Origin: Fusobacterium sp. JB019
Lineage (GTDB): Bacteria; Fusobacteriota; Fusobacteriia; Fusobacteriales; Fusobacteriaceae
Reading direction: 5' to 3'
DNA: 64,000 nt
Assembly (NCBI GenBank): GCA_030673965.1
Contig: JAUTCN010000007.1
Location: 1-64,000 of the forward strand
A program made the translations under genes and the position numbers. Positions 17,233 to 30,714 of the stretch are shown here, one piece after another (positions within the stretch are counted from its first letter, which is position 1; each line of letters starts with the position of its first letter). A model generated the notes under the pieces. The model saw only the letters and a program-made list of their open reading frames with translations. It ran no database searches and was not told the DNA's origin.

Positions 17233-18090
17233 ATGCAAAAAAAATTAATTATTTTAGGAACATCTTCAGGTGTTGGTAAATCAATTTTAACAACAGGAAT
17301 ATGTAGAGTTCTGTATAAAGATGGATATAAAGTAGCCCCTTTTAAAGCTCAGAATATGTCTAGAAATTCATTTACTCTTGAAAATGGATTAGAGATATCA
17401 ATAGCTCAAGTTTTACAGGCGCAAGCCTGTAATTTAAATCCAAAAGAATATATGAATCCTCTTTTATTAAAACCTTTAGGAAATAATATGATAGATATAT
17501 ATTTAAACGGAAAACATTATTGTAACATGAATGGAAAGGAATATACTAAAAATAAAGGAAAATTTAAAAATGATGTTTTAGAGGCTTTTAATAAGCTAAA
17601 TAATTTTCAAATATGCATATTAGAAGGGGCAGGGAGTCCAGTAGAAATAAATATAAAAGAAAATGATTTAGTAAATATGGGAATGGCAGAAATGATAGAT
17701 TCGAAAGCTGTTTTAGTGGCAGACATAGATAGAGGAGGAGTATTTGCTTCTATTGTAGGGACAATTACTTTATTAGAGCCTGAAGAGAAAAAAAGATTAA
17801 AAGGAATTATTATAAATAAATTTAGAGGAGACAAGGATATTTTACTTCCAGGAATAGAAAAATTAGAAAAAATAACAGGAGTTAAGGTTATAGGGGTTAT
17901 TCCTTATAATGAAATTGATTTAGAGGAAGAGGATAGTCTTAATGATAAAAAGGATAGAAAATATATAGAGAAAAAATTAAATGGGAAAACATATGAAGAA
18001 TATAAAGAACATCAATTTAATAGATTGGAAGAATTAGTAAGAAATAACTTAGATATGAATGAAATTTATAAAATTTTAGGGGATGAATAA
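17233..18090 (+). CDS. cbiP: Cobyric acid synthase lacking the glutamine amidotransferase domain
   Basis: A 285-residue member of the CobQ/CbiP family, whose usual length is about 490-510. Residues 1-236 are a complete ATP-dependent synthetase domain: P-loop GTSSGVGKS (9-17), PFKAQNMSRNS, LEGAGSPVEIN, VADIDRGGVFAS, INKFRGD, and IPYNEIDLEEEDS, where full-length enzymes run into the GATase domain. Here the chain jumps straight to YEEYKEHQFNRLEELVR (254-270) and LDMNEIYKIL, which is the extreme C-terminus of CobQ. About 205 residues, including the catalytic Cys/His, are absent in frame. The enzyme amidates four side chains of adenosylcobyrinic a,c-diamide; without the domain it would need free ammonia or a partner. 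It is the first gene of the corrin operon; AGAAGGAG precedes the start. Confidence 0.88.
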   Translation: MQKKLIILGTSSGVGKSILTTGICRVLYKDGYKVAPFKAQNMSRNSFTLENGLEISIAQVLQAQACNLNPKEYMNPLLLKPLGNNMIDIYLNGKHYCNMNGKEYTKNKGKFKNDVLEAFNKLNNFQICILEGAGSPVEINIKENDLVNMGMAEMIDSKAVLVADIDRGGVFASIVGTITLLEPEEKKRLKGIIINKFRGDKDILLPGIEKLEKITGVKVIGVIPYNEIDLEEEDSLNDKKDRKYIEKKLNGKTYEEYKEHQFNRLEELVRNNLDMNEIYKILGDE

Positions 18091-18093
18091 ATT

Positions 18094-19035
18094 ATGTTTA
18101 GTTTAAAGTTTCTTATAGCCTATGTTCTTGATTTAATTTTTGGAGATCCTGAAAAATTTCCTCATCCAGTTAGAATAATAGGAAATCTAATTAGTTTATT
18201 AGAAAAAAAATTATATTCTTATGATAAAAAAGTTTTTTTTGGTGGTATAACGGCAATTCTAACTATAATAATTACATTTTTAGTGAGTTATTTAGTTGTT
18301 TCTTTATCAGAGATTTTAGAAATAATACTTTTATATACAACCTTAGCTACAAAATGTTTAGCTGATGAAGGGATGAGAGTATATAAAATCTTAAAAAAAG
18401 GAGATTTAAAAGAAGCTAAAGAAAAATTAGCTTATTTAGTGAGTAGAGATACAGAAACAATGGAAAAAGGAGATATAGTTAGAAGTGTTTTAGAAACAAT
18501 TTCAGAAAATTCTATAGATGGAGTTATTGCTCCAATGTTTTATGCATTTATAGGGAGTTATTTTTCTATTAAGGGAATTTCTTTAGCTGTTCCTTTCGCT
18601 ATGACATATAAAAGTGTTAATACACTTGATTCTATGTTAGGCTATAAAAATGAAAAATATTTAAAATTTGGAAAAATATCAGCTAAAATTGATGATTTAG
18701 TTAATTTGATACCTGCGAGACTAGGAGGGATGATATTTATTCCTTTAGCTTCAGCATTAATAGGGTATAATTATAAAGAGAGTTTAAGGATTTTTTTTAG
18801 AGACAGAAAAAATCATGCTAGTCCAAACTCAGGGCATGGAGAAGCTGCTTTTGCAGGAGCTTTAGGAGTTCAGTTTGGTGGAAAAACAAAATATTTTGGT
18901 ACTTGGTATAATAAACCAACTATAGGGGAAAAAATAAAAGAATTTACAATTTCAGATATATTAGAAGGTAAAAAATTATTATATAGTTCATCTTTTATAA
19001 GTTTTTTAATTTTTTTCATTATATCTTTAATTTAG
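18094..19035 (+). CDS. cbiB: Adenosylcobinamide-phosphate synthase, CobD/CbiB
   Basis: A 313-residue polytopic membrane protein. The N-terminus FLIAYVLDLIFGDPEKFPHP, then VRIIGNLI, plus SRDTETMEKGDIVRSVLETI, SENSIDGVIAP and NHASPNSGHGEAAFAGALG are diagnostic of CbiB. It attaches aminopropanol (phosphate) to adenosylcobyric acid at the inner membrane. It starts three bases after cbiP. Confidence 0.95.
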   Translation: MFSLKFLIAYVLDLIFGDPEKFPHPVRIIGNLISLLEKKLYSYDKKVFFGGITAILTIIITFLVSYLVVSLSEILEIILLYTTLATKCLADEGMRVYKILKKGDLKEAKEKLAYLVSRDTETMEKGDIVRSVLETISENSIDGVIAPMFYAFIGSYFSIKGISLAVPFAMTYKSVNTLDSMLGYKNEKYLKFGKISAKIDDLVNLIPARLGGMIFIPLASALIGYNYKESLRIFFRDRKNHASPNSGHGEAAFAGALGVQFGGKTKYFGTWYNKPTIGEKIKEFTISDILEGKKLLYSSSFISFLIFFIISLI

Positions 19036-19047
19036 AAAGGGGAAAAA

Positions 19048-20106
19048 TTGGATTTACACGGAGGAAATATTTATAAATTATTAAGAAGAGGAGAAAAAAA
19101 TATTTTAGATTATAGTTCTAATATAAATCCTCTAGGAGTTCCAGAGAGTTTAAAAAAAAGTATTATTGAAAATTTTGAAATCTTAGAAAAATATCCAGAT
19201 ATAAATTATATAGAGTTAAGGGAAAGCATAGGGAAATATAATAAAATTTCAAAGGAGAATATTTTAGTAGGAAATGGAGCTACAGAAATTTTATTTTTAT
19301 ATATGAAAGCTTTAAAACCTAAAAAAGTAATAATAGTTTCTCCTACTTTTGCAGAATATGAAAGATCTTTAAAAACTTTTGATATAGAGATTGATTTTTT
19401 TCCCCTTAAGGAAGAAGAAAATTTTATACTGGATATTGAAAAATTAAAAAATAAAGGTAAAGATTATGATTTAGTAGTTTTATGTAATCCTAATAATCCA
19501 ACAGGAACTTTTATAGAAAAAAACAAATTATTATATTTAAATAATTATTTAAAAAAATTTAATACAAATCTATTTATAGATGAATGCTTTATAGAATTTG
19601 TAAAAGACTGGGAAGATAATACATTAATAGATTTAAAAAGTGAAAATATATTTATTCTTAGAGCATTAACAAAATTTTTTGCACTTCCTGGGATAAGATT
19701 AGGCTATGGATTAACTTATGATTCTCATATAATAAAAAAAATAGAAGAGATTAGAGAACCCTGGAGCGTTAATGCTTTTGCTGATTTAGCGGGGAAAGTA
19801 ATATTAAAGGATGAAAAATATATATCAGCAACTAAAAAATGGATATTAGAAGAAAAAATTTGGTTTTATAAAGAATTGGGAAAAATAGAAAAATTAAAAG
19901 TTTATAAGACTCATTCAAATTTTATATTAGTAAAATTAAAAACAATGAGTTCAGAAAATTTTTGTAAGTTAATGGAAAAGAAAGCTGTATTAGTGAGAAA
20001 CGCTTCAAACTTTAGATTTTTAGATAATAAATATGTAAGATTAGCGATAAAAGATAGGGAGAAAAATGAAAAAGTTTTAAAAATAATAAAAGAGGTATTA
20101 AAATGA
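19048..20106 (+). CDS. cobD: L-threonine-O-3-phosphate decarboxylase (aminotransferase fold)
   Basis: A 352-residue PLP enzyme. It starts at TTG 19048 after AAAGGGG, and the product begins with the family signature DLHGGNIYKLLRRG. Further motifs are DYSSNINPLGVP, VGNGATEILF, CNPNNPTGTF and the PLP lysine region RALTKFFALPGIRLGY. It makes the (R)-1-amino-2-propanol phosphate used by CbiB, encoded just upstream. The position between cbiB and cbiA supports CobD over histidinol-phosphate aminotransferase. Confidence 0.93.
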   Translation: MDLHGGNIYKLLRRGEKNILDYSSNINPLGVPESLKKSIIENFEILEKYPDINYIELRESIGKYNKISKENILVGNGATEILFLYMKALKPKKVIIVSPTFAEYERSLKTFDIEIDFFPLKEEENFILDIEKLKNKGKDYDLVVLCNPNNPTGTFIEKNKLLYLNNYLKKFNTNLFIDECFIEFVKDWEDNTLIDLKSENIFILRALTKFFALPGIRLGYGLTYDSHIIKKIEEIREPWSVNAFADLAGKVILKDEKYISATKKWILEEKIWFYKELGKIEKLKVYKTHSNFILVKLKTMSSENFCKLMEKKAVLVRNASNFRFLDNKYVRLAIKDREKNEKVLKIIKEVLK

Positions 20107-21446
20107 GAGGATTTTTAATAGCAGGAGCTAGAAGTGGGGTAGGGAAAACAACCATAGCTATGGGGTTGATGAAATGTTTTGAAGATGTTTCTCCTTTTAA
20201 AGTAGGACCAGATTATATTGATGGTAAATTTCATGAATATGTTACTTTAAATAAGAGTTATAATTTAGACTATATACTTATGGGAGAAGAGGGAATAAAA
20301 AAAACATTTATAAAAAATTCTAAGAAAATTTCTATTGTTGAAGGAGTTATGGGGCTTTATGATGGGAGAGGAATAGAATTAAATAATGGAAGTTCAGCCC
20401 ACATAGGAAGGATTTTAGATTTACCAGTTATATTAGTTGTTGATGGAAGAAAAATAAGCACTAGTATAGCAGCTGAAGTTTTGGGCTATAAAAATTTAGA
20501 TAGAAGAGTTAATATTGCAGGGATTATTGTTAATAAGGTTTCAAGTGAAAAAACTTATAAAATTCTAAAAGATTCAATAGAGAAATATTGCGGTATTAAA
20601 TGTATAGGGTATATGAAAGATATAAAGAATATAGGAATAGAAGAAAGACATTTAGGATTAATGCAAGCAGAAGAAATAAAAGATTTAGATGTAAAAGTAG
20701 AAAAAATAAGTTGTGAAATGAGAAAAACTATTGATTTAGATTATATATATAAAATTTCCAAATTAAAAGAAATAGAAGAGGGAAATTTTCTTAAAAAATT
20801 AATATCTGATAATAAGAAAAAATATAGAGGTATAAAAATAGGAATAGCTAAAGATGAGGCCTTTTCTTTTTATTATAATGATAATATAGAATTTTTAAAT
20901 GAAATAGGCATTGAAGTTATTTATTTTTCACCTATTCATGATGATGAAATTCCAAAAGATTTAGATATGCTATATTTTGGGGGAGGTTATCCTGAAAATT
21001 ATACAAAGGAATTATCTGAAAATAAAAATATGATTAGTTCTATAAGAAATTTTTTTAATAAAAATGGAGTTATATATGGAGAGTGTGGTGGGTTTATTTA
21101 TTTATCAGATACTTTAGAAACTTTGGATGGGGAAAAATATAATTTTGTAGGGATATCAGGAAATAGTATAAAAATGAAAAATCGACTAAATATAAAGAGG
21201 TTTGGATATGTTGATATAGAATATAAAGATAAACTTCAAGGTAAAGGACATGAATTTCATTATTCAGAAATTATATCTTCAAATGAAAATATAAAAAAAG
21301 AATTTAAAGTAAAAAAAACAGATGGTAGAAATTGGACATGTGGATATCATGTGAAAAATCTTTTATGTGGTTATCCTCATATTCATTTTTTTAAAAGTCA
21401 AGATATAATTTTTGATTTATTAGATAAAGCAAAGGAGTTAAAATGA
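20103..21446 (+). CDS. cbiA: Cobyrinic acid a,c-diamide synthase
   Basis: A 447-residue two-domain enzyme of normal length. The N-terminal synthetase has AGARSGVGKTT, PFKVGPDYIDG and GVMGLYDG; the C-terminal GATase retains FGGGYPENY and the nucleophile Cys328 in YGECGGFIYL, with GYPHIHFF near the end. It amidates the a and c side chains using glutamine. It overlaps cobD by four bases. Its intact glutaminase contrasts with the truncated CbiP of the same operon. Confidence 0.95.
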   Translation: MRGFLIAGARSGVGKTTIAMGLMKCFEDVSPFKVGPDYIDGKFHEYVTLNKSYNLDYILMGEEGIKKTFIKNSKKISIVEGVMGLYDGRGIELNNGSSAHIGRILDLPVILVVDGRKISTSIAAEVLGYKNLDRRVNIAGIIVNKVSSEKTYKILKDSIEKYCGIKCIGYMKDIKNIGIEERHLGLMQAEEIKDLDVKVEKISCEMRKTIDLDYIYKISKLKEIEEGNFLKKLISDNKKKYRGIKIGIAKDEAFSFYYNDNIEFLNEIGIEVIYFSPIHDDEIPKDLDMLYFGGGYPENYTKELSENKNMISSIRNFFNKNGVIYGECGGFIYLSDTLETLDGEKYNFVGISGNSIKMKNRLNIKRFGYVDIEYKDKLQGKGHEFHYSEIISSNENIKKEFKVKKTDGRNWTCGYHVKNLLCGYPHIHFFKSQDIIFDLLDKAKELK

Positions 21447-22090
21447 AAAAATATATAAAAGTTCCTGAAAATATAGAGAAAAAAAGTTTTGAAATTATTG
21501 CTGAAGAATTAGGAAGTAAGGAAAAAGAATTTTCTCAAGAGGAACTTAAGATTGTTAAAAGAGTAATACATACAACAGCAGATTTTGAGTATGCAAATTT
21601 AATAAAGTTTATAAATGATCCGATAACTAAAGGAAAAGAAGCTTTGAAATTGGGATGTAAAATATATTGTGATACTAATATGATTGTAAATGGTTTAAAC
21701 AGTAAGATTTTAAAAAATTTTAATTGTGAAGCTTATTGTTTAGTAAGGGATGAAGAAGTTGTTAAAGAAGCAAAGGAAAGAGGAATAACTCGTTCTATAG
21801 TAGGAATTGAAAAAGCTGCAAAATCAAATGATACAAAAATATTTTTAATAGGAAATGCTCCAACAGCTTTATATAAATTAAAAGAAATGATTATTGAAGG
21901 TGAAATAGAAAAGCCATTATTAGTAGTAGGAGTTCCTGTAGGTTTTGTAGGAGCTGCAGAATCAAAGGAATATTTTAAGGATACAGGAGTTCCTTATATA
22001 ACTATTGATGGAAGAAAAGGAGGTAGTACTGTAACAGTTTCCATTCTTCATGGAATTTTATATCAACTTTATAAAAGAGAGGGATTCTAA
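21443..22090 (+). CDS. cbiC: Cobalt-precorrin-8 methylmutase
   Basis: A 215-residue enzyme that moves the C11 methyl to C12 to form cobyrinic acid. RVIHTTADFEYANLIKF, YCDTNMIVNGLN, IGNAPTALYKL and GVPVGFVGAAESKEYF are family signatures; the His in VIHTTADF is the catalytic residue region. It overlaps cbiA by four bases. Confidence 0.95.
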   Translation: MKKYIKVPENIEKKSFEIIAEELGSKEKEFSQEELKIVKRVIHTTADFEYANLIKFINDPITKGKEALKLGCKIYCDTNMIVNGLNSKILKNFNCEAYCLVRDEEVVKEAKERGITRSIVGIEKAAKSNDTKIFLIGNAPTALYKLKEMIIEGEIEKPLLVVGVPVGFVGAAESKEYFKDTGVPYITIDGRKGGSTVTVSILHGILYQLYKREGF

Positions 22091-23214
22091 TGGGAAAAAA
22101 ATTAAAATCTGGTTACACCACAGGGAGTTGTTGCGCAGCTGCTATAGCAGCAGGATTAAATTTTTTGATATATAATAGAAAATTAAAAAATATTCAATTA
22201 GAAACTTTAAATAGTAAAAAAATAAAAATACCAATTTTAAAATTAAGAAAAAAAAATAATTTTGTAACCGTAGGAGTTAAAAAATATTCTGGGGATGATC
22301 CTGATGTAACTAATGGAATTGAAATTTATGCAAAAATAAAAATAGTTAAAAAGTTAAAAAAAGATAGTGCAGGTTATATTCTAGGTAATAACTTAATTAT
22401 AGGTGGAAGAGGAATAGGCAAAGTTACTAAAAAAGGACTTAGATGTGAGGTTGGGAAATATGCAATTAATCCAGGACCTTTAAAAATGATGGAATTAGTT
22501 TTAAATGATTTTGTAGATGAATTGGAAAATATTTTTTTAGAAATAACATTATATATACCTAAAGGAAGAGAAATAAGTAAAAAAACATTTAATCCTAAGT
22601 TAGGCATAATAGGTGGAATTTCTATATTAGGTTCAACAGGAATTTTAAATCCTATGAGTGAAGAAGCTTTAAAAGATTCTTTATATGTTGAGATGAAGGT
22701 TTTAAAAGAAAATAGTGATAAAGATTATATAGTTTTTGTTTTTGGAAATTATGGTAAAAAATATTGTGAAAATATAGGATTAGATTCTTCTAATTTAATG
22801 GTTATTAGTAATTATGTGGGGTATATGTTGGAAGTAGCTAAAGAATTGAAATATAATAAGATAATTCTTATAGGGCATATTGGTAAAGCAATTAAGATAG
22901 CAGGAGGTATTTTTAATACTCATAGTAAGGTAGCAGACGCTAGAATGGAGATTATGGGAGCCAATGCTTTTTTAAATGGAGAATCAAATGAAAATGTTAA
23001 AAGAGTTTTAAGTTCTAATACAGTTGAAGAAGCTTGTGATTATATAGAAAATGATGAATTTTTTTTCAAAATAGCAAATAAAGTTTCTGAAAAGATAAAA
23101 AATTACTTAAAGACAGAAGAAGTTCAATGTGAGGTTTTATTATTTTCTTTTAAAGAAAAAATATTAGGGTATAGTGATAAGTTTTATAAATTAATTGAAG
23201 AGGTAAAAGAATGA
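22090..23214 (+). CDS. cbiD: Cobalt-precorrin-5B C1-methyltransferase
   Basis: A 374-residue protein beginning with the CbiD signature KSGYTTGSCCAAAIAAGL, followed by KYSGDDPDVTNGIEIYA, GRGIGKVTKKGL, NPGPLKMM and GGISILGSTGILNPMSEEAL. CbiD is a marker of the anaerobic, cobalt-early pathway. It shares one base with the cbiC stop. Confidence 0.95.
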   Translation: MGKKLKSGYTTGSCCAAAIAAGLNFLIYNRKLKNIQLETLNSKKIKIPILKLRKKNNFVTVGVKKYSGDDPDVTNGIEIYAKIKIVKKLKKDSAGYILGNNLIIGGRGIGKVTKKGLRCEVGKYAINPGPLKMMELVLNDFVDELENIFLEITLYIPKGREISKKTFNPKLGIIGGISILGSTGILNPMSEEALKDSLYVEMKVLKENSDKDYIVFVFGNYGKKYCENIGLDSSNLMVISNYVGYMLEVAKELKYNKIILIGHIGKAIKIAGGIFNTHSKVADARMEIMGANAFLNGESNENVKRVLSSNTVEEACDYIENDEFFFKIANKVSEKIKNYLKTEEVQCEVLLFSFKEKILGYSDKFYKLIEEVKE

Positions 23215-23834
23215 GTATAAATATTGTTGGTTTAGGAGTAGGAAACTTAGATTATATAACTGAAATAGCTAAAAAAAAATTAATTGATTCGAATATAATT
23301 ATAGGAGGAGAAAGACAGTTAAAAGATATTTCTTCTATAGTAACTTCTCAAAAGCTATATAGATTAAAAAAATTAGATGATATGAAAATATATGTGGATA
23401 ATAATATAAATAAGAAAATATGTTTTATAGTTTCTGGAGATACAGGCTTTTATAGTTTAGTTTCATATTTAAAAAAATTTTATAAAGAAGAAATAGATAG
23501 TATAGTACCTGGAATATCTTCTTTTCAATATTTATTTTCTAGAATAGGAGAAACTTGGGAATATTATAATTTATATAGTATTCATGGAAGAAACTTAGAT
23601 TTTATTAAAGAATTAGAAAAAAGTAAAAAAGGAATAATATTATTAACTGATAAAAAAAATTCTCCTAGATATGTTGGAGAACAATTATATAAAGAAAAGT
23701 ATTATGACGTTGAAATGATTATAGGAGAAAATTTATCTTACGAAAATGAAAAAATAGAAAGATTTAAAATTGCAGATTTAAAAGAAAATATACGAGATTA
23801 TGAAATTAATGTTTTGATTTTAAAAAAGGAGTAA
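23211..23834 (+). CDS. cbiE: Cobalt-precorrin-7 C5-methyltransferase
   Basis: A 207-residue SAM-dependent tetrapyrrole methylase with GLGVGNLDYIT at the start (GVG where GPG is usual), IIGGERQLKDI, VSGDTGFYSL and PGISSFQYLFSRIG. It overlaps cbiD by four bases and is followed by cbiT; the two activities are often fused (CobL) but are separate here. Confidence 0.9.
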   Translation: MSINIVGLGVGNLDYITEIAKKKLIDSNIIIGGERQLKDISSIVTSQKLYRLKKLDDMKIYVDNNINKKICFIVSGDTGFYSLVSYLKKFYKEEIDSIVPGISSFQYLFSRIGETWEYYNLYSIHGRNLDFIKELEKSKKGIILLTDKKNSPRYVGEQLYKEKYYDVEMIIGENLSYENEKIERFKIADLKENIRDYEINVLILKKE

Positions 23835-23835
23835 T

Positions 23836-24405
23836 ATGCATATTAGAGATGAAGAATTTATAAGAGATAAAGTTCCTATGACAAAAGCAGAAGTAAGAAT
23901 GATTTCTATAGGTAAATTGGATTTAAAAGAAGATTCTATTTTAATAGATGTAGGCGCAGGAACAGGAAGTATTGGGATAGAAGCATCAACTTATTTAAAA
24001 AAAGGAAAAGTTTATGCTATTGAGAAAAAGGATAGTAGAGTAGATTTAATTAATAAAAATTTAAAGAAGTTTAAAGTTAATAATTTAGAAGTTATTTATG
24101 GGAATGCTCCAATAGATTTAAATATAAAAAAATTTAATAGAATGTTTATAGGCGGTTCTTCTAATAATATGAGTGGAATAGTAGATTATTTTTTAGAATA
24201 TTGTGATTCTTTAGGGGTTTTAGTTATAAATGTTATTGCTCTTGAAACTTTAAGTGAAGTTTTAGAGATTTTAAAAAATAATAAAGATAGATTAGAAGAT
24301 ATTGAAGTGGTAAATATAAGTATTTCTAAAAATAAAAACATAGGGGATTATACTATGATGATAGGTGAAAATCCAATATATATAATTAGTGCTAAAAAAA
24401 AATAA
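23836..24405 (+). CDS. cbiT: Cobalt-precorrin-6B C15-methyltransferase (decarboxylating)
   Basis: A 189-residue Rossmann-type SAM methyltransferase. The N-terminal IRDEEFIRDKVPMTKAEVR and the SAM motif LIDVGAGTGSIGIEAS are CbiT signatures, and MFIGGSSNNMSGI follows. It methylates C15 and decarboxylates the C12 acetate chain. It starts one base after cbiE. Confidence 0.93.
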   Translation: MHIRDEEFIRDKVPMTKAEVRMISIGKLDLKEDSILIDVGAGTGSIGIEASTYLKKGKVYAIEKKDSRVDLINKNLKKFKVNNLEVIYGNAPIDLNIKKFNRMFIGGSSNNMSGIVDYFLEYCDSLGVLVINVIALETLSEVLEILKNNKDRLEDIEVVNISISKNKNIGDYTMMIGENPIYIISAKKK

Positions 24406-24422
24406 AAAGAAAGAGGTAAAGA

Positions 24423-25142
24423 ATGAACAAGTTTTATGGTATAGGGGTTGGAGTTGGAGATCCAGAAATGATAACAGTGAAAGCTGTAAATATCTTAAAA
24501 AAGATAGATATAGTTTTAATACCTAATGCAGGGAGAGATTATACAAGTACAGCTTATAATATAGCAAAAGAGTATTTGAAAAAAGATGTTAAATTAATAA
24601 ATATAGAATTTTCAATGAATCCAAAATTAGAAGAAAGAAAAAAAGAAAGAAAGAAAAATGCTGGTATAGTAGAAAAATATTTAAAAGAAAATAAAAATGT
24701 AGCTTTTTTAACTATAGGAGATCCAATGGTTTATAGCACATATATATATTTATTAGAAAATATATCTTCTGAATATCAAGTTCAAACAATTTCAGGAATA
24801 TCATCTTTTGCAGATATTAGTTCAAGATTTAATATACCACTTGTCATAGGGAATGAAACTTTGAAAATTTTACCTTTACATAAAAATTGTGATATAGGAA
24901 AAGAAATAGAGACTGCAGATAATGTGGTTATAATGAAAGTTGCTTTAAAATTTAAAGAATTAAAGAAAGTTTTAAAAGAAACAAATAATGAAAATAATAT
25001 TATTTTAGTTTGCGAATCAGGAAAGGAAAAGGAAAGGGTATATTTTGATTTAAATGAAATAGATGAAGATAATGTACCTTATTTTTCTACTCTTTTATTA
25101 AAAAAAGGAGGAATAAATAAATGGAAAAAGTTTATTTCATAG
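24423..25142 (+). CDS. cbiL: Cobalt-precorrin-2 C20-methyltransferase
   Basis: A 239-residue tetrapyrrole methylase with GIGVGVGDPEMITVKAVNIL, VLIPNAGRDYTSTAYNI, FLTIGDPMVYSTYIYL and ISGISSFADISSRFNIPL, matching CbiL/CobI. It performs the first corrin-specific methylation. It starts 17 bases after cbiT and its end overlaps cbiF by 22 bases. Confidence 0.92.
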   Translation: MNKFYGIGVGVGDPEMITVKAVNILKKIDIVLIPNAGRDYTSTAYNIAKEYLKKDVKLINIEFSMNPKLEERKKERKKNAGIVEKYLKENKNVAFLTIGDPMVYSTYIYLLENISSEYQVQTISGISSFADISSRFNIPLVIGNETLKILPLHKNCDIGKEIETADNVVIMKVALKFKELKKVLKETNNENNIILVCESGKEKERVYFDLNEIDEDNVPYFSTLLLKKGGINKWKKFIS

Positions 25143-25891
25143 GAGCAGGACCAGGAGATCCTGAGTTAATAACTGTAAAAGGGCAAAATATTATTAAATT
25201 AGCTGATATAATAATTTATGCAGGTTCATTAGTTCCCAAAGAGGTTTTGGAAGTTCATAAGGAAGGGGCAGAAATTTATAATAGTGCTAAAATGACATTG
25301 GAAGAAGTTGTGGATATAATGATAAAAAATGCCAAGGAAGGGAAAAAAGTAGCAAGAGTACATACTGGAGATCCTTCTATTTTTGGGGCTCATAGGGAAC
25401 AAATGGATATATTAGAAGAAAATAATATAGATTATGAAGTAGTTCCAGGAGTAAGTTCATTTTTAGCTTCAGCAGCAGTATTAAAAAAAGAATTTACTTT
25501 ACCAAATGTTAGTCAAACAGTTATTTGTACAAGATTAGAAGGAAGGACTCCAGTTCCAGAAGAAGAATCATTAGATAAATTAGCTTCTCATAAATGTTCG
25601 ATGGCTATATTTTTATCAGTTCATATGATAGATGATGTAGTTGAAAAATTATTGAAATATTATGATGAAGATACTCCTATTGCCATTGTACAGAGAGCTA
25701 CATGGAAAGATCAAAAAATTGTACAAGGAAAATTGAATAATATCGTTGAATTGGTAAAAGAGTCAAATATAACTAAAACTGCTCAAATTTTAGTAGGTAA
25801 TTTTTTGGGAAATAAATATTCTAAATCTAAGTTATATGATAAATATTTTACTCATGAATTTAGAGAAGGAATAAAAGAGGAAGAATTATGA
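25121..25891 (+). CDS. cbiF: Cobalt-precorrin-4 C11-methyltransferase
   Basis: A 256-residue tetrapyrrole methylase with FIGAGPGDPELITVKGQNII, IYAGSLVPKEVL, RVHTGDPSIFGAHREQMD, VPGVSSFLASAAVLKKEFT and the CbiF-specific RLEGRTPVPEEESL. The ATG at 25121 has AAAGGAGG upstream, so the 22-base overlap with cbiL is real. Confidence 0.95.
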   Translation: MEKVYFIGAGPGDPELITVKGQNIIKLADIIIYAGSLVPKEVLEVHKEGAEIYNSAKMTLEEVVDIMIKNAKEGKKVARVHTGDPSIFGAHREQMDILEENNIDYEVVPGVSSFLASAAVLKKEFTLPNVSQTVICTRLEGRTPVPEEESLDKLASHKCSMAIFLSVHMIDDVVEKLLKYYDEDTPIAIVQRATWKDQKIVQGKLNNIVELVKESNITKTAQILVGNFLGNKYSKSKLYDKYFTHEFREGIKEEEL

Positions 25892-26868
25892 AAATAGCAA
25901 TAATAGCAGTTACAAAAAAAGGACTAGAAAAAAGTCATGAAATAAAAAGTAAAATAGAATGTGATATTTATACTCTTGAAAAATTAAAAAAAGAAGGAGA
26001 TAAATTAATAAAAATTTCTTTATCAAAAACTTATATGGAAATTTATAGGAAATATGATGCTTTTATTTTTGTAACTTCTACAGGAATTGCAGTTAGAATA
26101 ATAAGTCCATATATAGAGAGTAAAGAAAAAGATCCAGCAGTATTGGTTGTTGATCAAGAAGGAAATTTTGTAATATCTCTTTTATCAGGACATTTAGGAG
26201 GAGCAAATAATTTAACAAACAGGATTTCTAAAATTTTAAATTCTATTCCTGTAATAACAACAGCATCTGATATTTCAGGAAAAATAGCAGTGGATACGAT
26301 TGCGATGAATATTAATTCTAAAATAGAAGATTTGGAAGCAGCAAAAAAAGTGACTAGTTTAATAGTAGCTGGAGAAAGAGTTCAACTAAGGATTCCAGAA
26401 AATATATCTAACAATAATCCTAGCGGGATTATTGTTATTACTAATAGAGAAAATATAGAAATTTCTAAAATAATTCCTCAAAATTTAATAGTTGGAATTG
26501 GCTGTAAAAAAAATATTGAAAAAATTAAAATTATAGAAGCAATAAATGATATATTTTTTAAAAATAATTTATCTTTAGAGGCTATTAAATGTTTTGCTAC
26601 GATAGATATAAAAAAAAATGAAAAAGGAATATTAGAAACAGCTGAAAAATTTAAAAGAAATTTAAAAATAATAAATAGAGAAGATGTGAAAAAAGTGCAT
26701 GATAAATTTAAGGGTTCTGATTTTGTATATAAAACAATTGGAGTTTATAGTGTTTCTGCACCAGTAGCCTATCTAGCTTCCAGTAGAAAAGGAAAATTAT
26801 TGGTAGAAAAATTAAAATATGATGGAATTACAATTTCAATCTTTGAGGAGGAAACAAGAGATGGGTAA
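25888..26868 (+). CDS. cbiG: Cobalt-precorrin-5A hydrolase
   Basis: A 326-residue CbiG with all three parts: N-terminal VTSTGIAVRIISPYIESKEK and DPAVLVVDQEGNFVISLLSG, central HLGGANNLTNRI, and C-terminal VGIGCKKNIEK with GVYSVSAPVAYLASSRKG. It opens the lactone and releases the C20 unit as acetaldehyde. It overlaps cbiF by four bases. Confidence 0.94.
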   Translation: MKIAIIAVTKKGLEKSHEIKSKIECDIYTLEKLKKEGDKLIKISLSKTYMEIYRKYDAFIFVTSTGIAVRIISPYIESKEKDPAVLVVDQEGNFVISLLSGHLGGANNLTNRISKILNSIPVITTASDISGKIAVDTIAMNINSKIEDLEAAKKVTSLIVAGERVQLRIPENISNNNPSGIIVITNRENIEISKIIPQNLIVGIGCKKNIEKIKIIEAINDIFFKNNLSLEAIKCFATIDIKKNEKGILETAEKFKRNLKIINREDVKKVHDKFKGSDFVYKTIGVYSVSAPVAYLASSRKGKLLVEKLKYDGITISIFEEETRDG

Positions 26869-27589
26869 AATTTATGTTGTTGGGATAGGACCTGGCAATA
26901 AAGAAAATATGACATTTAGAGCATATGAAGCAATGAAAAAATCGGATATTATAGTAGGTCATAAAACTTATATTTCTTTAGTTGAAAATATGTTTAAAAA
27001 TAAAATTTTTATAAAGTCTTTTATGAAAAAAGAAATAGAAAGATGTGAGGAGACATTAAACTTAGCAAAGGAAGGGAATATAGTTTCTTTAATAAGCTCA
27101 GGAGATGCAGGAGTTTATGGTATGGCGGGGATTATGTTGGAAATAGCTAGTGATTCTGGGATAGAGGTTGAAATAATACCTGGTGTAACAGCATCTAATG
27201 CTAGTGCTTCTTTAGGTGGAGCTCCGATTATGCATGACAGTGTAACAATTTCTTTAAGTGATTTATTAACTGATTGGGAGTTAATAAAAAAGAGAATAAA
27301 GTTAGCTTCCATAGGAGATTTTGTAATATCTCTTTATAATCCTAAAAGTAAAACAAGAATAACACAAATAAAAGAGGCAAGAGAGATTATGCTTAATTAT
27401 AAAAATCCTAAAATTCCTGTTTTAATTGCTAGAAAAGTAGGAAGATTAGGAGAAAATTATGAAATAACTAATTTAGAAAATATGCTAAGTTGTGAGATAG
27501 ATATGTTTTCAACTGTTATCATAGGAAATTCAAAAACATTTGTAAAAAATGGGAAAATAATAACTCCAAGGGGATATAAGGTGAAATAA
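26861..27589 (+). CDS. cbiH: Cobalt-precorrin-3 C17-methyltransferase
   Basis: A 242-residue tetrapyrrole methylase with VVGIGPGNKENMTFRAYEA, IVGHKTYISLV, SSGDAGVYGMAGIMLE, IPGVTASNASASLGGAP and the CbiH-specific ISLSDLLTDWELIKKR. The ATG at 26861 is chosen since GAGGAGG lies just upstream and the family starts MGKIYVVGIGPG; a longer frame from 26819 only translates cbiG sequence in another frame. It overlaps cbiG by eight bases. It catalyses C17 methylation and ring contraction. Confidence 0.94.
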   Translation: MGKIYVVGIGPGNKENMTFRAYEAMKKSDIIVGHKTYISLVENMFKNKIFIKSFMKKEIERCEETLNLAKEGNIVSLISSGDAGVYGMAGIMLEIASDSGIEVEIIPGVTASNASASLGGAPIMHDSVTISLSDLLTDWELIKKRIKLASIGDFVISLYNPKSKTRITQIKEAREIMLNYKNPKIPVLIARKVGRLGENYEITNLENMLSCEIDMFSTVIIGNSKTFVKNGKIITPRGYKVK

Positions 27590-28360
27590 ATGGATTGGAT
27601 AATTGGTGGAACTAAAGATTCAAGAGATTTTATAGAAAATATATTAAAATTAAAAAAAAATATAATAGTAACAACAATTAGCGAGTATGGAAAAAAATTA
27701 TTAGAAAAATATGAAATAAATGTAATTGTTAAGTCCATGAAAAAAGAAGAAATGCAAGAGTTTATAGAGAAAAATAAGATAAAGAGAATATTTGATTTTA
27801 GTCATCCCTATGCAGTAAATGTTTCTAAAAATGCAATTGAAATTGCAAAAATAAATTATATTGAATATTTTAGATTTAATAGAAAAACTTATAACTATAA
27901 AGAATGTATAGAATTTAATGAAATTGAAAAATTGGTAAGATTTACTTCTACATTAGAGGGGAATATTTTAAATACTTTAGGGAGCAATAGTGTTGAGAAA
28001 TTTGAAAATTTAAAAAACTTAGAAAATATTTATTTTAGAATTTTACCTACTAAACTTTCCATTGAGAAAGTTGAAAATATAGGAGTTTTACCTAAAAAAA
28101 TAATAGGAATTCAAGGACCATTTACAAAAGAATTTAATTCTTTTATTTATAAAAATTATAGTATTAAATATTTAATTACAAAAGAAAGTGGCGATATCGG
28201 AGGAGAAAAAGAAAAGATAGAAACGGCTTTAGAAAATAAAATTAAAGTTCTTGTCTTAACAAAGCCTATTATAAATTATCCTTGGGGAACTGATGATATG
28301 GAAATTATTTTAGAAAAATTTAAAGAAAATATAGGAGATGAAAATGAAAAAACTTTTTAA
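27590..28360 (+). CDS. cbiJ: Cobalt-precorrin-6A reductase
   Basis: A 256-residue NAD(P)H-dependent reductase. IIGGTKDSRDFI, DFSHPYAVNVSKNAIEI, NTLGSNSVEKF, FRILPTKLSIEK, GIQGPFTKEFN and LITKESGDIGGEKEKIETA are CbiJ/CobK signatures. The start codon directly follows the cbiH stop codon. Confidence 0.92.
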   Translation: MDWIIGGTKDSRDFIENILKLKKNIIVTTISEYGKKLLEKYEINVIVKSMKKEEMQEFIEKNKIKRIFDFSHPYAVNVSKNAIEIAKINYIEYFRFNRKTYNYKECIEFNEIEKLVRFTSTLEGNILNTLGSNSVEKFENLKNLENIYFRILPTKLSIEKVENIGVLPKKIIGIQGPFTKEFNSFIYKNYSIKYLITKESGDIGGEKEKIETALENKIKVLVLTKPIINYPWGTDDMEIILEKFKENIGDENEKTF

Positions 28361-29246
28361 GATAGGAACGAGAGGAAGCATTTTAGCTTTAGCTCAAACA
28401 AAAATAGTTAAAGAATTAATTAAAGAAAAGTTTCCAGAATTAGAGCTTGAAATAAAAGAAATCATAACAACAGGAGATAAAGATTTAAGAACAAATTGGG
28501 GAGATAAAAATATTTCTTTGAAAAATTTTTTTACAAAGGAAATAGAAAAGGAATTATTAGAAGGGGAGATAGATTTTGCAGTTCATTCTATGAAAGATAT
28601 GCCAATTATAAATCCTAAGGGCTTAATTTTAGGAGGAGTACCTAAAAGAGCTGATAATAGAGATGTTTTTATATCAAAAACAGGTAAAACTTTAAAAGAA
28701 TTACCAGAAAATCCAATAATAGGAACTAGTTCTATAAGAAGAGCAACATGTGTTAAAGAATTAAGAGAAGATGCAGTTATAAAACCAATTAGAGGGAATA
28801 TTCATACTAGATTAAGAAAATTAAAAGAAGAAGATTATGATGGGATTATTTTAGCTGGAGCAGGATTAATTAGAACAGGTTTAGAAGAGAAAATAACAGA
28901 GTATTTTAATATAGATGAAATAGTACCAGCACCAGCTCAAGGAGCCATATATATTCAATGTAGAGAAGATGACACTGATCTTTTAAATATACTTAAAAAA
29001 ATAACAGATGAAAAGACTTTAGAAATTATAAAAATAGAAAGAGAGTTCTCTAAAATTTTTGATGGGGGCTGTCATACACCAATGGGATGTGCAGGCTATT
29101 TTATAGGAGATGAAATTGAACTTCAAGGCATGTATTATTCTAATGGAATTATGTCTAAAAAAACTTACAGAGGTAAAAAAGAAGAAAAAGAAAGGATAGC
29201 TCGTATTTTAGCTGAAAAAATACAGGAGGAAATCAATGGAAAATAA
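28344..29246 (+). CDS. hemC: Hydroxymethylbilane synthase (porphobilinogen deaminase)
   Basis: A 300-residue enzyme of normal length. FKIGTRGSILALAQTKIV, GDKDLRTNWGD, DFAVHSMKDMP, GTSSIRRATCVKE, IRGNIHTRLRKL and DGGCHTPMGC are visible, with Cys243 carrying the dipyrromethane cofactor. It polymerises four porphobilinogens. ATG 28344 is preferred to 28338 because AGGAG lies six bases upstream. It overlaps cbiJ by 17 bases. Confidence 0.95.
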   Translation: MKKLFKIGTRGSILALAQTKIVKELIKEKFPELELEIKEIITTGDKDLRTNWGDKNISLKNFFTKEIEKELLEGEIDFAVHSMKDMPIINPKGLILGGVPKRADNRDVFISKTGKTLKELPENPIIGTSSIRRATCVKELREDAVIKPIRGNIHTRLRKLKEEDYDGIILAGAGLIRTGLEEKITEYFNIDEIVPAPAQGAIYIQCREDDTDLLNILKKITDEKTLEIIKIEREFSKIFDGGCHTPMGCAGYFIGDEIELQGMYYSNGIMSKKTYRGKKEEKERIARILAEKIQEEINGK

Positions 29247-30714
29247 AGGAAAAGTCTATATTCTAGGGGGAGGTTCTGGAGATTTTGAGTTATTAACTTT
29301 AAAAGGAAAAAGATCCTTAGAGGAAGCTGATTGTATTATTTATGATAGATTAGTGAATGATATTATACTTAGATTTGCTAATTCTAAAGCTGAAAAAATA
29401 TATTTTGGGAAAAGAAATACTGAAGGTGGATTAATACAAGAAGAGATAAATAAAATGCTAGTAGAAAAAGCTTTACAGGGTAAAAAAGTTGTTCGTTTAA
29501 AAGGAGGAGATCCCTTTGTTTTTGGAAGAGGGGGAGAAGAAATAGAGGAATTAATAAAAAATAATATAAAATTTGAAATAATTCCTGGAATAACTTCTGC
29601 AATATCAGTTCCAGAATATGCAGGAATACCAGTAACGCATAGAGGAATAGCTAAATCATTTCATGTTTTTACAGGAATGACGGCTAAAAATAATTCATAT
29701 CATAATTTTGAAAATATATCTAAATTAGAAGGAACATTGGTCTTTTTAATGGGAGTTAAGAATTTAAATTTAATTTCAAAAGAACTGATGAAAAATGGAA
29801 AATCTTCAATGACTCCAGTTGCAATTATAGAAAAAGGAACAACTGGAGATCAAAGGGTTGTACAAGGTGTTTTAGGAGATATAGAGTTTTTAGCTAACGA
29901 ACAAAATATTAAACCACCAGCAGTTATAGTGGTTGGAGAAGTTGTAAATAAAAGAGAAAAATATAAATGGTTTGAGGATAAACCGTTGTATGGTAAAACT
30001 ATTTTAGTTACAAGAGAGGAAAGGTTAGGGAAAGAATTTTGTAGAAAAATAGAAAAAAAAGGTGGAAAGTCAATATTATTTCCTATGATAAGTTTAAAAA
30101 ATAATATGCATAAGTTTTGTTATGGAAACTTAAAGAATTATAAAGCTTTAATGTTTAATTCTCCAAATGGAGTGAAATTTTTTTTTGATAGTTTAGATGA
30201 TATAAGAATACTTGGAAATATTAAAATAGGAGTAGTGGGAGATAAAACAAGAGAAGAACTAGAAAAATATAAAATAAAAGCAGATATTATGCCTAAAAAT
30301 TATTTAGGAATGGAATTAGCTGAAGAAATGACAAAAATTACTAAAAAAGGAGAAAAGATTTTAGTAATAACTTCAGACATTTCTCCTTTAAAAGAGGAAG
30401 AATTAAAAAGTAGATTTAAAAGAAATTTTAAAATTTTGCATGCCTATAAAAATAGTCCTTTAAAAGTAGAAAAAAACAAATTATTGGAAAAAATATCTGA
30501 GGCTGATTACATAACGTTTTTTAGTGGCTCAGCGGTGGAAAATACAATTAATTGTTTGAAAAATGACGTATTTTCTTTAAAAAATACAAAAATAGTTTCA
30601 ATAGGTCCTTCTACAACGAAAAAAATAAAAAAATATTTAGATAAAGAAGTCTTACAACCTCTTATATACCAAGGAGATGAAATGATAAAGACCATTTGTG
30701 ATACAGAAAAATAA
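29236..30714 (+). CDS. cobA-hemD: Fused uroporphyrinogen-III C-methyltransferase and uroporphyrinogen-III synthase
   Basis: A 492-residue fusion. Residues 1-245 are a SUMT: GGGSGDFELLTLKG (S replaces the usual P of GPGD), RLKGGDPFVFGRGGEE, PGITSAISVPEYAGIPVTHR, FLMGVKNL, EKGTTGDQRVVQG. Residues about 255-490 are a HemD domain: KTILVTREE, FNSPNGVKFFFDSL, GVVGDKTREELEKY, ITFFSGSAVENT and IVSIGPSTTKKIKKY. It closes hydroxymethylbilane to uroporphyrinogen III and methylates it to precorrin-2, the branch point to corrins and sirohaem. It overlaps hemC by 11 bases and is the last gene of the operon. Confidence 0.95.
   Translation: MENKGKVYILGGGSGDFELLTLKGKRSLEEADCIIYDRLVNDIILRFANSKAEKIYFGKRNTEGGLIQEEINKMLVEKALQGKKVVRLKGGDPFVFGRGGEEIEELIKNNIKFEIIPGITSAISVPEYAGIPVTHRGIAKSFHVFTGMTAKNNSYHNFENISKLEGTLVFLMGVKNLNLISKELMKNGKSSMTPVAIIEKGTTGDQRVVQGVLGDIEFLANEQNIKPPAVIVVGEVVNKREKYKWFEDKPLYGKTILVTREERLGKEFCRKIEKKGGKSILFPMISLKNNMHKFCYGNLKNYKALMFNSPNGVKFFFDSLDDIRILGNIKIGVVGDKTREELEKYKIKADIMPKNYLGMELAEEMTKITKKGEKILVITSDISPLKEEELKSRFKRNFKILHAYKNSPLKVEKNKLLEKISEADYITFFSGSAVENTINCLKNDVFSLKNTKIVSIGPSTTKKIKKYLDKEVLQPLIYQGDEMIKTICDTEK

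Follow-up and report, generated by a model that had tools for sequence, protein, structure and literature searches.

The B12 operon within the 64,000 nucleotides of Fusobacterium sp. JB019 DNA analysed here (the window) begins with a short cbiP gene (copy A) whose product lacks the glutaminase (GATase) domain of cobyric acid synthase, and the second CbiP of this bacterium (copy B) has kept that domain and lost its catalytic Cys. We consider it probable that copy A is a working single-domain cobyric acid synthase fed by free ammonia, and that cobyric acid synthesis in the genus is ammonia-fed via copy A, copy B or both.

Copy A (17233..18090, + strand) was an uninterrupted ORF encoding 285 aa, with an ATG start and a GGAG ribosome-binding-like motif directly 5'. 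Its P-loop (GTSSGVGKS, residues 9-17; 17257..17283) and EGAGS motif (residues 131-135; 17623..17637) were intact, and the synthetase motifs extended to IPYNEIDLEEEDS, followed by a linker of about 20 residues in place of the GATase domain (17938..17991 by alignment) and then YEEYKEHQFNRLEELVRNNLDMNEIYKIL. The C-terminal helices, which come after the GATase in full-length CbiP, were kept (17992..18078; alignment and model). Alignment with the full-length orthologue of another species of the genus (G002, 493 aa) placed the roughly 208 missing residues exactly across the GATase domain. Pfam matched CbiA/AAA_26 in copy A and did not find GATase_3 (PF07685), and the GATase Cys/His pair is absent. 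These data bear out the first-pass annotation, which had described a 285-residue CbiP with its GATase removed in frame and its synthetase motifs and C-terminal helices retained. Among NCBIfam profiles, copy A scored barely above the cut-off for cobyric acid synthase TIGR00313 (310.9 against 309.9 bits) and well above that for NF001989 (347 against 273). The AlphaFold model was confident (mean pLDDT 89.8, pTM 0.89), with pLDDT below 50 solely at residues 235-240, the loop at the former GATase site. The closest solved fold was dethiobiotin synthetase (BioD; Z 19.6, 3.2 Å over 215 residues), and there was no full-length CobQ among the PDB sequence matches or among the Foldseek matches listed for copy A. 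Motifs, score cut-offs, B12 gene context and phylogeny identify copy A as a member of the CobQ/CbiP family.

Downstream on the same strand, copy A was followed by cbiB, encoding adenosylcobinamide-phosphate synthase (18094..19035; ORF list, NCBIfam and Pfam), a cobD-like threonine-phosphate decarboxylase gene (19048..20106; 285.6 bits, below the TIGR01140 cut-off of 290.6), and cbiA, encoding a,c-diamide synthase (20103..21446; NCBIfam and Pfam). The corrin-ring genes cbiC, D, E, T, L, F, G, H and J came next (21443..28360; cbiC assigned by profile, the rest by resemblance and order), and the operon closed with a hemC-like gene and a fused uroporphyrinogen-III methyltransferase/synthase gene (28338..30714). 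The GATase nucleophile motif of CbiA read GECGG, as the first-pass annotation had held in stating that this enzyme keeps its own GATase, and the same intact motif was present in each of the seven genomes sampled from the genus (G000-G006). The operon had also been described as otherwise complete, and corrin genes were found across the genus (cbiC and cbiB in 7/7 genomes). The operon was split in four species, where the short copy A lay beside only cbiB and cobD, apart from the corrin genes. Loss of the corrin pathway from these four species was considered and rejected, as cbiC and cbiA were found elsewhere in their genomes. CbiA in the split-operon species was about 40 residues longer (483-488 aa; L193, L194, L195, L196) than the 447 aa protein of the window. 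No cobalamin riboswitch was found upstream of the window operon; one was observed 5' of the full-length cbiP of G002 (L039:9608-9789).

Comparison across the genus revealed that copy A was short in six of the seven species, the short forms being 54-84% identical to that of the window; only G002 carried a full-length copy A, with its GICGG motif intact. Among the short forms, dN/dS was 0.095 at dS 0.32 for the closest pair (G003/G006; NG86) and approximately 0.1 at dS near 1 for the others. Values ranged from 0.03 to 0.1 across both copies, those for copy B being 0.05-0.09, and both copies are therefore under purifying selection. The two copies formed separate clades in the tree. Full-length copy A of G002 was sister to the six short forms (SH-aLRT 98), which sat on long branches, whilst the short copy A of G033, a member of another Fusobacteriaceae genus, grouped with its own relatives (support 97). 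These placements indicate at least two losses of the GATase domain in Fusobacteriaceae. Copy B of G033 retains its Cys. In the same genome (L038, C3), an in-frame TGA interrupts cbiB beside the independently shortened cbiP, representing either a pseudogene or a sequencing error.

A second, full-length cbiP was one of the findings that the first-pass annotation had set against ammonia dependence, as were an assembly deletion and restriction of the short form to one strain with B12 auxotrophy. The second gene does exist, on the same contig as the window but outside it, 79 kb downstream (C7:97292-98800, - strand; L032:7292-8800), adjoining ptsI and not B12 genes. Its product, however, had lost the catalytic nucleophile, with GIHSG in place of GICGG (Cys330 to His), and His replaced Cys in all seven species, with GIHGG in G005 and AIHSG in G004. 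Positions 331 and 396, the latter within the conserved GYEIH motif, were also altered in several species. Far from weakening the ammonia idea, a second cbiP that is without its catalytic Cys throughout the genus strengthens it, since six of the seven species are left without any CbiP glutaminase nucleophile. The other two objections fail, as the short form is present under purifying selection in six species. Elsewhere the nucleophile was nearly invariant: 151 of 152 other full-length CbiPs carried the Cys, the sole exception being L100 (L100:5580-7130), from a Thermoanaerobacterales MAG, with GIGSS for GICGG. Despite its dead nucleophile, the pseudo-GATase of copy B is not decaying. The divergence ratio of this domain to the synthetase domain was 1.26, compared with 1.39-2.06 in Cys-bearing relatives, so it is at least as constrained as theirs, and copy B retained nearly all invariant synthetase residues.

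CbiPs without a GATase are not unique to the bacterium of the window and recur in Bacillota, the phylum of Romboutsia. CbiP matches came from 216 of the 398 genomes sampled in this phylum, and at least 11 of the 216 encoded short proteins of 277-312 residues that retain the C-terminal helices. Ten genomes, of unstated completeness, yielded no CbiP other than the short protein, and CbiA is also encoded in five of them (G407, G447, G358, G191 and G378); cbi operons were read in several of the genomes with a short CbiP. A tree of long and short CbiPs, built with the diagnostic columns left out, required at least seven changes between the two forms. The best reading of this pattern is that ammonia-dependent cobyric acid synthesis may have evolved repeatedly. 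Two GATase-less proteins (L201 and L203) grouped with the full-length, Cys-less L100 (support 92), which hints that loss of the Cys may have preceded loss of the domain. One further genome, G404 (L266, L207), encoded two CbiPs, a short one within a cbi operon and a full-length, Cys-bearing one elsewhere. TIGR00379 detected no CbiA in G404, where either the short form might take its place or the genome might be incomplete. The open-licence literature that we searched contained no description of a CbiP lacking the GATase.

A residue signature screen was utilized to characterize the short forms, comparing 18 of them with 152 full-length CbiPs at the 70 positions of the synthetase domain where at least 95% of the latter agree. 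Positions changed in most short forms clustered at residues 39-58 and 88. R57 and Q88 were each kept in 152/152 full-length proteins and lost from 17 and 15 of the 18 short forms, respectively; L44 (151/152) and A43 (148/152) were each lost from 17. In copy A, the first of these regions (17347..17406) read QNMSRNS for QNMALNS and carried I57 for R57, and residue 88 (17494..17496) was Asp. The P-loop and EGAGS motifs were unchanged in short forms, and proteins that keep the domain with a dead Cys (copy B and L100) retained all four residues, save one R57K. Four independent pairs could be drawn on well-supported branches, and R57 behaved as expected in 3.7 of the four on average, too few for significance. 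The simplest inference is that, in full-length enzymes, the co-lost residues lie against the GATase or along the route of the ammonia. Alternatively, the losses may reflect a change of substrate.

We also searched for a glutaminase that might substitute for the missing domain, covering homologues of PF07685 across the genus and of PF00117 in the genome of the window. GATase_3 searches revealed no stand-alone CobQ-type GATase in that genome or the genus, returning just CbiP, CbiA and weak matches, those in the bacterium's own genome being HisH, PurL and a DJ-1/PfpI-like protein. The stand-alone candidates in that genome were rejected, being HisH, DJ-1/PfpI-like, the PurL C-terminus, TrpG/PabA types, GuaA, PyrG and CarA as named from sequence. 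CbiA, HisH, GuaA, CarA, PyrG, PurL and the TrpG type all keep their Cys in this genome, indicating that the loss of glutaminase is specific to CbiP and that glutamine is not avoided in general. Two TrpG/PabA-type genes with identical protein sequences (L249 and L254) were present in opposite orientation at G000:C5 23693-24241 (+) and 180658-181206 (-).

The class-I nucleophiles were also read in Bacillota genomes with a GATase-less CbiP (loci L214-L217, L219, L221, L222, L224, L225, L227, L228, L256, L259 and L260). Replacement of Cys by Gly or Ala, or a relic GATase, was observed in G425, G285, G358, G447, G407, G191 and G378. In G425, G285, G447 and G358, PurQ read GIGNG and GatD read GIGLG, AIGLG or AVGLG; CbiA read AEGGG or AEGLG in G407, G191 and G378; CarA read GIALG in G447; and GuaA read GIGGG in G425 and was left with just a relic GATase in G407. 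The Cys was kept in PyrG and TrpG where these were found, in PurQ of G407, G404 and G360, and in CbiA of G447 and G358. We lean slightly towards a broader interpretation, whereby ammonia-dependent, GATase-less CbiPs would form a recurrent class marked by loss of R57, Q88 and L44, and much of the amide biosynthesis in some Bacillota, where the Cys of PurQ, GatD, CbiA, GuaA or CarA has also been lost, would run on free ammonia.

In the scheme that we favour, copy A would activate corrin side-chain carboxylates with ATP and amidate them with free ammonia instead of channelled ammonia derived from glutamine. Copy B would have turned into a pseudo-glutaminase, by exchange of Cys for His, in the common ancestor of the genus, and copy A would afterwards have lost the whole GATase in all sampled species but one, such that either copy, or both, would now make cobyric acid, in each case fed by ammonia. 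We infer the ammonia donor, the catalytic activity of copy A, which of the two losses came first and the role of the co-lost residues at the GATase or along the ammonia path. In vitro, CbiP and CobQ can use ammonia when its concentration is high. Two-domain glutamine amidotransferases in general are said to work in vitro with glutamine or with ammonia (PMC3376133), so an enzyme stripped of its glutaminase could stay active in cells rich in ammonia, such as amino-acid fermenters.

The main rival to this scheme is that copy B is the sole cobyric acid synthase of the genus, itself using ammonia, and that the short copy A has taken another role, for example in amidating some of the side chains or in partnering CbiB. 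Copy B could indeed make cobyric acid alone in the genome of the window; it has a nearly complete set of invariant synthetase residues, and the relative divergence of its pseudo-GATase is low. The fast divergence of copy A on its long branches and its loss of residues invariant in full-length proteins, including R57, Q88 and L44, mean that its substrate may have changed, and its position with only cbiB and cobD in four species fits the same view. Against this, five CbiA-bearing Bacillota genomes had no detected CbiP other than a short one with comparable residue losses, so that such a form is probably able to act as cobyric acid synthase, and the short copy A combines purifying selection with an intact ATP core. 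We therefore regard a sole role for copy B as a distinctly less probable explanation.

Another possibility is that the short copy A or copy B takes ammonia in trans from a different glutaminase, for example the GATase of CbiA or a class-I amidotransferase of another pathway. CbiA lies in the same operon with its Cys intact, and two-subunit amidotransferases are common, two-subunit NAD synthetases included (PMC3376133). The idea of a borrowed GATase, already raised in the first-pass annotation, is nevertheless weakened and now appears unlikely: the genus has no spare GATase_3 protein, CbiA itself is without the Cys in G407, G191 and G378, and the residues that by sequence track the fused GATase are lost in short forms. 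Decay of both copies in a bacterium dependent on imported corrinoids would explain why neither retains a working glutaminase, and the in-frame stop in cbiB of G033 points the same way, but this is very improbable in view of dN/dS of 0.03-0.1 in both copies, the corrin operon in seven of seven species, and a linker and C-terminus that are conserved across divergent species despite loss of the domain. An assembly or frameshift artefact, conceivable for a draft genome of 22 contigs, was rejected as having almost no likelihood, as six species share the identical architecture at 54-84% identity with no stops or frameshift.

Glutaminase-channelled ammonia has been treated as a defining trait of this enzyme class, from which naturally glutaminase-free CbiPs depart. 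They suggest that amidation with free ammonia may be genuinely open to bacteria whose internal ammonia is high. The co-occurrence in one cell of a domain-less CbiP and a dead but constrained one offers ready-made pairs for probing the roles of the glutaminase and the ammonia tunnel and the synthetase residues involved in the coupling. There is also a consequence for annotation, with a bearing on B12 production, in that the profiles naming such genes describe a glutamine-using enzyme.

Known CobQ/CbiP enzymes (EC 6.3.5.10; TIGR00313, NF001989) use glutamine and ATP to amidate four side chains (PMC7242693), which converts adenosylcobyrinic acid a,c-diamide to adenosylcobyric acid. Copy A shares their synthetase motifs, C-terminal helices, operon context and cut-off scores, but is without the GATase and its Cys/His pair and has R57, Q88, L44 and A43 replaced, whereas copy B has the GATase domain with His for Cys. 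BioD resembles copy A as a P-loop ligase fold without a GATase, yet the two differ in sequence (15% identity; 19.5 bits against a cut-off of 83.3 for TIGR00347) and in the B12 operon context of copy A. A 2012 survey of eight amidotransferase families, in which CobQ was not included, recorded glutaminase-free members solely in NAD synthetase, where single-domain NadE is ammonia-dependent and held to be ancestral (PMC3376133). Like NadE, copy A is a lone synthetase domain in a family otherwise bearing a fused glutaminase, is separable from the fused form by motifs, and has no fused or dedicated separate glutaminase among the PF07685 and PF00117 homologues searched; unlike NadE, which adenylates and whose single-domain form is held to be ancestral, short CbiP differs in chemistry and is a form derived by repeated loss. 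Vertebrate CPS I, which has a GATase domain without the catalytic Cys and uses ammonia as donor (PMC7657897), provides a model for copy B, although it belongs to another enzyme family, and the Cys to His exchange and a sister copy without the domain altogether are particular to the case described here. NadE and CPS I thus provide precedents for the two states found in this genus, the domain-less copy A and the Cys-less copy B, respectively.
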